Both the position numbers and the translations under genes were made by a program. A stretch of 64,000 bases of DNA from Paenibacillus tundrae (lineage in GTDB: Bacteria; Bacillota; Bacilli; Paenibacillales; Paenibacillaceae): assembly GCF_036884255.1 (NCBI RefSeq), contig NZ_CP145605.1, positions 2,480,001-2,544,000 on the forward strand, in the 5' to 3' direction. The notes beneath the pieces are model-generated. The model had not been told where the DNA came from. It was given only the letters and a program-made list of their open reading frames with translations, and did no database searches. This document shows positions 59,246 through 60,262 of the stretch, piece after piece (position 1 is the stretch's first letter; each line of letters opens with the position of its first letter).

Positions 59246-59270
59246 GGCCGGGCTGAACTCCCGGCCTTTT
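59246..59270 (+). terminator. Terminator after recA
   Basis: GGCCGGG (59246-59252) pairs with CCCGGCC (59260-59266), followed by TTTT. Confidence 0.8.
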
Positions 59271-59302: not shown

Positions 59303-59499
59303 GCTATATAAGTTCAACTAAACTTTTTACACGAGAACGGAGAGGACAGAAATAACGTGAAGAAGCGAAGCGTTCGCCTTTATCCCCGGATTTTCCCTTT
59401 GAAGAAGGGAATTCAAAAAATCTGGGGATAACAGTGATCGGAAGGTTATTCTGTCATCGAAGTGACAAGTGTAAACTTCTATAGTTGAACCTATATAGC
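59303..59499 (+). repeat. 197-bp palindromic (MITE-like) element upstream of recX
   Basis: The whole segment folds on itself. Outer arms, 59303-59332 and 59469-59499, pair from GCTATATA/TATATAGC through AGTTCAACTA/TAGTTGAAC to TTTACAC/GTGTAAA. A second pairing is GACAGA-ATAAC (59345-59356) with GTTATTCTGTC (59445-59455). Inside are GCGAA/TTCGC (59365-59377) and a 14-bp stem TATCCCCGGATTTT (59381-59394) with its complement at 59417-59430, capped by CCCTT/AAGGG. No ORF or target duplication seen. I recall similar sequences in Paenibacillus intergenic regions, but copy number cannot be tested here. Confidence 0.8.
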
Positions 59500-59521
59500 A
59501 ACGATGAAAGGAGATTAAGGC

Positions 59522-60262
59522 ATGGACAAATATGATGAGGATTTATTTGAAGAAGCAGAGCTAACGGGAATCTCCCAATTTCCCGATCATGAGGAATTGA
59601 CCATTACAAGGGTTGAGCGGTTGCTGAAGGGACGAGTGGCGAGATATCGTATCGAGTTCGGTATGCACTCAATTACTGTTCTGGAAGATGTAATGATTAA
59701 ATATCGGTTGACGCGGGGTAACACATTTGTAAAAAAGGATCTTGAGGAAATTGTTATGGCTGATGAGCGCCAACAGACATATGTTCAGTCTTTGCGTTAC
59801 CTCGAATTTAAGCCGCGTACACGTCATGAATTAAGCCAGCGCTTGCGGCAGAAGCAGTTTGCGCCTCCGTTGATTGAAGAGGTGTTGGATCGGCTGGAGC
59901 AGGAGAGATTGATTGATGATGAAGCATTTGCGAAGGAATGGACACGTCAGCGTATGGAGGGTCAGCGTAAGGGAAAACTGTGGATAAGGCAAGAACTTCG
60001 TCAGAAGGGCATTGCTAATGATCTAATTGCTGAAGCCTTGGAAACCGTGAGTGGAGATACAGAATTTGAGACTGCTTTGACCGCAGGACGTAAGAAGTGG
60101 AATCAAGTCAAAGGCGACATTTCTGAGAAGAAACGCAAAACGCTTCCTTTTCTGATGCGGCGTGGTTTTCCAATGGATATGGTGCGCCGTGTCGTTAATT
60201 GTTTAATTGAAGAAACTGAGGCTAAAGACCCTGATGATGACGACGCTTTACTGTGGGATTAG
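59522..60262 (+). CDS. recX: Recombination regulator RecX
   Basis: 246 residues with RecX three-helix repeats: YLEFKPRTRHELSQRLRQK, then IEEVLDRLEQERLIDDEAFAKEWTRQRM, GKLWIRQELRQKGIANDLIAEAL and later KTLPFLMRRGFPMDMVRRVV. It binds and modulates RecA filaments. ATG behind AAGGAG, 22 bases after the palindromic element, which therefore occupies its leader. Confidence 0.94.
   Translation: MDKYDEDLFEEAELTGISQFPDHEELTITRVERLLKGRVARYRIEFGMHSITVLEDVMIKYRLTRGNTFVKKDLEEIVMADERQQTYVQSLRYLEFKPRTRHELSQRLRQKQFAPPLIEEVLDRLEQERLIDDEAFAKEWTRQRMEGQRKGKLWIRQELRQKGIANDLIAEALETVSGDTEFETALTAGRKKWNQVKGDISEKKRKTLPFLMRRGFPMDMVRRVVNCLIEETEAKDPDDDDALLWD

Follow-up and report, generated by a model that had tools for sequence, protein, structure and literature searches.

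The recX leader and its element

The recX gene of Paenibacillus tundrae is preceded by a palindrome (Table 1), with a terminator-like hairpin that follows recA on one side and the ribosome-binding site of recX on the other. The window is the whole stretch of DNA analysed here, 64,000 nt of this genome. The initial annotation had described 197 bp before recX as a nearly full-length palindrome with nested stems that would form one long hairpin just before the ribosome-binding site, and this description is borne out: the segment 59303-59499 folds into a single long hairpin with a minimum free energy (MFE) of -74.2 kcal/mol, as compared to -39.9 +/- 3.7 for 200 dinucleotide shuffles (z -9.20), none of which is equally stable (0 out of 200). 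The nested helices, termed P1, P2, P2b and P3, as well as a small apical hairpin, are all present in the MFE fold. A chance palindrome is ruled out by the z-score together with the motif copies found genome-wide. The 197-bp extent holds for the palindrome, while the mobile unit is slightly shorter (189 bp), as judged from TA-flanked insertions elsewhere. From the end of the element it is 26 nt to the recX ATG and 11 nt to the AAAGGAG motif. A conserved small ORF in the element was considered and rejected, there being, as judged by eye, a possible start codon (ATG/GTG/CTG) and in-frame stops that vary.

Table 1. Features of the recX leader (positions are those of the window).
Feature	Position	Strand	Basis
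Hairpin and T run resembling a terminator, after recA and upstream of the element	59246..59270	+	sequence, by eye
Left TA of target duplication (C-TA before the element)	59305..59306	.	sequence; TA-flanked insertions at comparable sites
Entire mobile unit (class A), in sense orientation with recX	59307..59495	+	sequence, genome copies, TA-flanked insertions, IS630-type ends
Left terminal inverted repeat TATAAGTTCAACTAAAC	59307..59323	+	resembles IS630 ends TATAA[AG]TTGAACTAAAG in L314/L315
P1 (outer helix), inner part, 5' side TTTACAC (partner 59469-59475, GTGTAAA)	59326..59332	+	MFE fold
Conserved symmetric GGA/GGA internal loop, 5' side CGGAG	59338..59342	+	flanking pairs covary (RNAalifold structure)
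P2 helix, 5' side, bulged A included (partner strand 59445-59455)	59345..59356	+	covariation
J2, conserved purine-rich strand, consensus GNAGAAGCGNAG, variable N	59357..59370	+	conserved columns, partly fixed by the search pattern
Helix P2b, 5' side CG-N-UCGC (3' side 59434-59440)	59371..59377	+	nearly invariant, fixed by the search pattern
Helix P3, 5' side (3' side 59417-59431)	59380..59394	+	two-sided changes; G-U 29 vs A-C 7 cells
Apical hairpin CCCTTTGAAGAAGGG, differs between copies	59395..59409	+	MFE fold, copy comparison
GGA/GGA internal loop, 3' side, CGAAG in the recX copy	59458-59462	+	sequence
Right terminal inverted repeat, TATAGGTTCAACTATAG on the minus strand	59479..59495	-	sequence, IS630 end comparison
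Right TA of target duplication, then G	59496..59497	.	sequence
Shine-Dalgarno-like AAAGGAG of recX, just beyond the element	59507..59513	+	sequence
recX	59522..60262	+	label from the initial annotation; position after recA

Copies in the genome and in the genus

The genome of P. tundrae (6,534,616 bases, one contig) contains at least 42 DNA matches to the element, with 40 out of 143 candidates scored. With up to 3 mismatches allowed, a 23-base motif of the right side is found 98 times, equally on the two strands (49 each), and the reversed motif, used as a control, has no match in this genome. A left-side motif gives 100 matches, of which 20 have no counterpart among the 98 right-side ones. 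The union of the two is 118 places, the recX copy included and a few being doubtful, so that the palindrome is not a single-copy sequence, a point for which the initial annotation had proposed a count of copies. For six of the 98 right-motif copies the left half could not be recognised on first inspection, and a few copies (e.g. L101, L133, L186) are shortened or doubtful. Within the genus, 58 out of 60 genomes match the element, the genome of P. tundrae being counted. A search of plasmid and phage records gave one weak plasmid match and none in phages. No right-motif copy was seen across 1.14 Mb of the P. tundrae chromosome (2.96-4.10 Mb) round the likely terminus, whose position is assumed; the left motif finds a tandem pair inside this region, at 3.243 Mb.

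Insertion at TA and IS630-type ends

For comparison with relatives, 30 occupied sites were located in G013, G056 and G066, and 22 of the 30 were displayed. Readable empty alleles at seven sites point to a TA-flanked insertion. At five of these (L154, L156, L161, L163 and L177) the insertion is clean, with TA on both sides; it is less exact at L119, where there are three extra bases at one end, and at recX, where the flanks differ in two places. The target was CTAG in 4 out of the 7 sites. Many of the further sites compared show deletion scars, and one of them (L140) carries an outer-arm remnant like that seen at recX in relatives. At the glyA site (L171), G013 and G056 have the core turned round within its outer arms with respect to P. 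tundrae and G066, so that before glyA the core is antisense to the gene in these two relatives. A ZTP riboswitch match (56 bits, minus strand, L171:3006-3087) lies about 900 nt upstream of the glyA copy.

IS630 elements duplicate TA (PMC2170065), and the title of a paper cited in that article speaks of a preference for CTAG. The element is like this family in its TA duplication, in the CTAG target of four of the seven sites, and in having ends similar to those of IS630-family elements of the genus; it is unlike IS630 insertion sequences in that it has no transposase inside and its genome has no match to the DDE_3 transposase family (PF13358). A cognate transposase in the same genome is usual for a MITE, even if not strictly defining. 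Within the genus, PF13358 has matches in 21 out of 75 genomes at E <= 0.001, of which 19 are over the cut-off. Element-like ends (up to 3 mismatches, a setting that gives 3 background hits in the 64-kb window) were found at 9 out of 30 fetched DDE_3 loci, and bracketing pairs of such ends at 4 out of 30 (two of them in G067 and single ones in G006 and G064). The bracketing ends, such as TATAA[AG]TTGAACTAAAG, span 1162-1167 bp and are preceded by CTA in 8 out of 8 cases. The longest frames inside the four bracketed elements are only 202-236 amino acids long, therefore none of them is demonstrably intact.

The recX element thus has the usual marks of a MITE, being small and without a transposase gene, with a TA target duplication and with terminal inverted repeats that resemble IS630-family elements of related species. 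Because of the TA/CTAG insertion and the IS630-like ends, we refer to copies with such ends as class A and regard them as MITEs of the IS630 (Tc1/mariner) type. The initial annotation had called the palindrome MITE-like or REP-like. The first term stands, on account of the inverted repeats, TA duplication, copy number, presence/absence in relatives and IS630-like ends. The second has no support from the size, the ends and the TA duplication, which are of another kind: REP sequences are palindromes of 20-40 nt partnered by a Y1 (RAYT) transposase.

Mobility of this sort raises the question whether the element is purely selfish, in which case the fold would be needed only for transposition or would be maintained by palindrome correction. 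The TA duplication, the IS630-type ends, the presence or absence of copies between relatives and the core inverted before glyA would all suit such a reading. We nevertheless consider it unlikely as a full account, for reasons that lie in the fold, the orientation and the retention of certain copies, and that are given below with the respective results.

Conservation of occupied sites

Thirty recX loci, fetched from 74 recX-bearing genomes, were compared. The full element lies before recX only in P. tundrae; G013 and G066 have a 44-bp palindrome at recX that consists of the outer arms, G056, which is labelled as the same species, has no element there, and the covariance model finds none at the remaining fetched loci. 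We considered whether short 44-bp palindromes form a separate family, and rejected this since the arm pattern, used in one arm form, gave only two places each in P. tundrae and G066. As the pattern is so rare, deletion of the core is the better reading of the remnants in G013 and G066. The recX copy is probably recent or unstable, without a conserved role specific to recX, and the earlier proposal that it may tune recX expression relative to recA is not upheld by an element that is complete in 1 out of 30 loci and missing in G056. The same 1 out of 30 is what a purely selfish element might be expected to show.

A rough rule was used to divide the copies: those with the inner P1 motif TTACA/TGTAA were taken as class A (61 out of 98). 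Inverted copies being scored as present, class-A sites are occupied in all three relatives in 2 out of 24 cases, and sites without the class-A motif in 4 out of 6. A copy adjoins moaA in 18 out of the 24 genomes whose moaA is at least 93% identical, one of these copies scoring only 34.6 bits. Among six more distant loci there is none next to moaA, and two of the six hold a copy about 800 nt away. By eye, the copies at the moaA site mostly have no class-A ends, those in G062, G040 and G012 being class-A-like. Either the moaA site is a hotspot, or the element is favoured there; the 18 retained copies speak against a purely selfish element.

A conserved RNA-like fold

The exact pattern of the central loop was scanned over genome_contigs (84,980 species) and found in at least 120 stretches. 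The 80 loci listed belong to Paenibacillus, Saccharibacillus and one record labelled Bacillus; they contain 82 pattern matches, of which two were dropped for short flanks. The search pattern fixes J2, P2b and the first pairs of P3, and leaves P1, P2 and most of P3 free to vary. In the 80 listed copies, arms of 60 nt pair with their own partner at a mean of -37.6 kcal/mol, as compared to -21.6 kcal/mol with arms of other copies, and the own partner is better than all 20 foreign partners in 64 out of 80. For P3 alone the values are -17.6 and -11.1 kcal/mol, the own partner being best in 40 out of 80.

Covariation was analysed in an alignment of 34 sequences (33 of 60 similar-length copies plus the window copy). 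In the named structure, 90.5% of the cells are paired and two-sided changes occur in 26 out of 36 pairs, including all 13 pairs of P2. None of 500 shuffles reaches its covariation, and sliding the helix partners lowers the pairing to 35-53%; the named pairs were chosen partly from the test alignment itself, which favours this structure. RNAalifold alone arrives at nearly the same structure, with two-sided changes in 25 out of 35 pairs. P2b gives no covariation evidence, since it is nearly invariant and fixed by the search pattern. The compensatory changes that the initial annotation had asked for in homologs are thus found, and what it missed is a conserved, strand-specific RNA-like fold across the order.

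The conserved fold is about 150 nt long and consists of P1, the GGA/GGA loop, P2 with its bulged A, a 12 x 2 loop (GNAGAAGCGNAG), P2b and P3; its loop motifs are GGA/GGA and GAAGCGNAG. At paired columns there are 52 G-U as opposed to 25 A-C cells. P3 contributes 29 vs 7 to these, while P2 alone, with 23 vs 18, gives no clear strand signal. The sense strand folds more stably than the antisense strand in 61 out of the 80 listed copies. The fold is also found in copies that, by eye, lack IS630-type ends. Such copies, with their loops and covarying helices kept, are difficult to reconcile with a fold that serves transposition only, and palindrome correction might be expected to straighten the loops, which has not happened.

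In a search of the order Paenibacillales, with up to 12 candidates scored per genome, the covariance model matches at least 200 out of 246 genomes at E <= 1e-4, in 33 out of 46 genera. A known RNA family of Rfam 15 was sought and rejected. At the gathering thresholds there is no match in the 64-kb window. Over the element itself, 6 matches appear when E values up to 5 are admitted, all of them falling far short of gathering (best E 0.3). In 7 loci that contain other copies the only hits are to the ZTP riboswitch and, weakly, to S15, both away from the copy. No published description was found among the papers listed in the literature searches, subscription papers and supplements being mostly outside its reach, and the main texts of PMC11109978 and PMC8632094 do not contain the word Paenibacillus. 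The folded RNA is apparently undescribed.

Orientation and position relative to genes

With ORFs called by a crude script rather than taken from annotation, copies between co-directional genes in P. tundrae are in sense orientation in 71 out of 74 cases. Sense and antisense copies number 60 vs 2 at leading-strand genes, and 11 vs 1 at lagging-strand genes. A stricter ORF filter gives 65 out of 68 in this genome; in other species it gives 32 sense and 7 antisense out of 39, and a looser rule gives 40 sense and 11 antisense out of 51. The stricter filter set aside 9 out of 98 copies in P. tundrae and 28 out of 80 in other species, as ambiguous, inside an ORF or without a flank; the copies beyond its counts have convergent or divergent neighbours. 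The sense direction cannot be a strict requirement, because 7 out of 39 (or 11 out of 51) copies in other species are antisense. For a purely selfish element, the bias would have to reflect selection against harmful antisense insertions; its strength, in spite of a symmetric TA target, weighs against that reading.

The copies are also biased in orientation with respect to the replichores (41/9 vs 8/40). Targeting to a replication strand was considered and rejected as the cause, since the lagging-strand genes (11 co-directional, 1 anti) indicate that gene orientation explains the bias better. The same numbers bear on the idea that the structure acts as single-stranded DNA, in transposition or replication, rather than as RNA. 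The replichore bias would fit it, and so would the G-U and folding signals, read as properties of single-stranded DNA of that strand. The motif GCGNAGC forms a very stable DNA mini-hairpin; GCGAAGC at 59365-59371, in J2, could form such a GNA triloop, and triloops are also possible in a 38-bp hairpin module carried by some copies, in which 28 out of 34 loops are GNA. That orientation follows the genes where genes and replication differ, and that copies are located at start codons, makes an action as DNA improbable in our view.

The element stops within 60 nt of a start codon in 49 out of 64 cases, an estimate based on a fixed right end, and in other species 27 out of 50 start codons lie 74-106 nt after the right anchor. 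It is nearer to the downstream than to the upstream gene in only 40 out of 64 cases (p 0.06). The downstream ORFs are diverse, the commonest Pfam family being found in 4 out of 83. An NCBIfam search with twenty of them left three without a family at E 1e-20 and placed twelve above a curated cut-off, these being htpG, rimM, sdhB, gnd, argB, glyA, purM, purD, rlmN, cysS, araA and a DHA2-type efflux transporter. No regulon or shared function is evident among the downstream genes. A classical riboswitch or attenuator for one pathway would sit, as many copies do, in a 5' leader just before the ribosome-binding site and would have conserved internal loops; about a hundred copies before unrelated genes, the lack of a consistent gene association and sites whose occupation differs between species make it the least credible of the explanations considered. 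At one place in P. tundrae (L111-L113, ~0.823-0.828 Mb), copies stand before purM, a 532-aa ORF and purD within a few kb; as a guess, the ORF between the purM and purD copies is purH.

Comparison with known elements

It is instructive to set the element beside RUP of pneumococcus, Correia/NEMIS and ERIC. These are sequences of 100-200 bp with terminal inverted repeats, TA ends and TA duplication, a long RNA hairpin, a high copy number and an intergenic location, and the ERIC and NEMIS RNAs undergo binding or cleavage that affects the stability or processing of the downstream message, according to Delihas (2007, PMC2229807). Going by these descriptions, the Paenibacillus element is similar in size, inverted repeats, TA duplication, RNA hairpin, copy number and intergenic location. 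It differs in that its RNA fold is conserved also without the ends, in its strong sense orientation and in the expandable 38-bp hairpin module. MRSC-65-2, as described in the main text of PMC11109978, also has dozens of copies per genome and a covarying stem, and is thought to be selfish; it has a single long stem with UYCCGG repeats and occurs in diverse phyla, whereas, to judge from that description, the Paenibacillus element differs in having several conserved loops.

A possible role in mRNA

We propose, with a probability of about 0.6, that the element is a portable, cis-acting mRNA element in sense orientation, partly dispersed by IS630-type transposition. We infer that the fold acts in mRNA. 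The unit would work in the sense direction, directly upstream of ribosome-binding sites or between cistrons, where a host RNA-binding protein would most likely bind the rod, or an RNase cut it, and thereby set how stable the downstream mRNA is or how it is processed. A site of this kind, as described for the ERIC and NEMIS RNAs, fits best because the structure is a long rod with conserved purine loops placed before ribosome-binding sites or between cistrons. New copies would arise by IS630-type transposition, most class-A copies coming and going and a few sites being kept. More tentatively, and with rather less confidence than in the proposal itself, we speculate that this is a new, order-wide class of RNA that is both regulatory leader and mobile: an mRNA module recruited by IS630-type MITEs, so that a genome would go on dealing about a hundred sense-oriented, protein-read leaders to operons, some to be kept and most lost.

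The RNA fold has about a hundred copies in this genome and is present in most of the genomes examined in the order; with no counterpart in Rfam 15, it would be a large feature of Paenibacillales transcripts that annotation has overlooked. Should it act in mRNA, a single transposon family would be handing out a ready-made regulatory module, and its effect could be tested directly on the natural alleles of close relatives, in which the element is present, absent, inverted or deprived of its core.

Modules, arrays and viral contigs

Orthologous copies differ in the 38-bp module, GAAAGCTTTCT-GNA-AGAAAGCTACATCGGAAGCATAAGC or close to it: some have it, some lack it, and in others it is partial or doubled (L111, L113, L145, L149 and orthologous sites). 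A GNRA tetraloop was rejected for this module in favour of the GNA triloop. Tandem arrays of 2-5 near-identical units of about 200-250 bp were seen at L279 (P. tundrae, C1 562777-563695), L280, L281 and L282, one array being made of five units of about 224 bp. The helices of the array units are unlike those of other copies, and the loops are kept.

The exact core pattern is also present in 24 viral contigs. Ten of these were scanned with the covariance model (L488, L490, L491, L493, L502, L503, L504, L492, L485 and L500) and have matches at 169-937, the RNA being near one end of the contig or locus in all ten. In L490 and L502 it is flanked by a small XkdX-like ORF and a holin-like ORF (names given by eye), and is in sense orientation to the latter.
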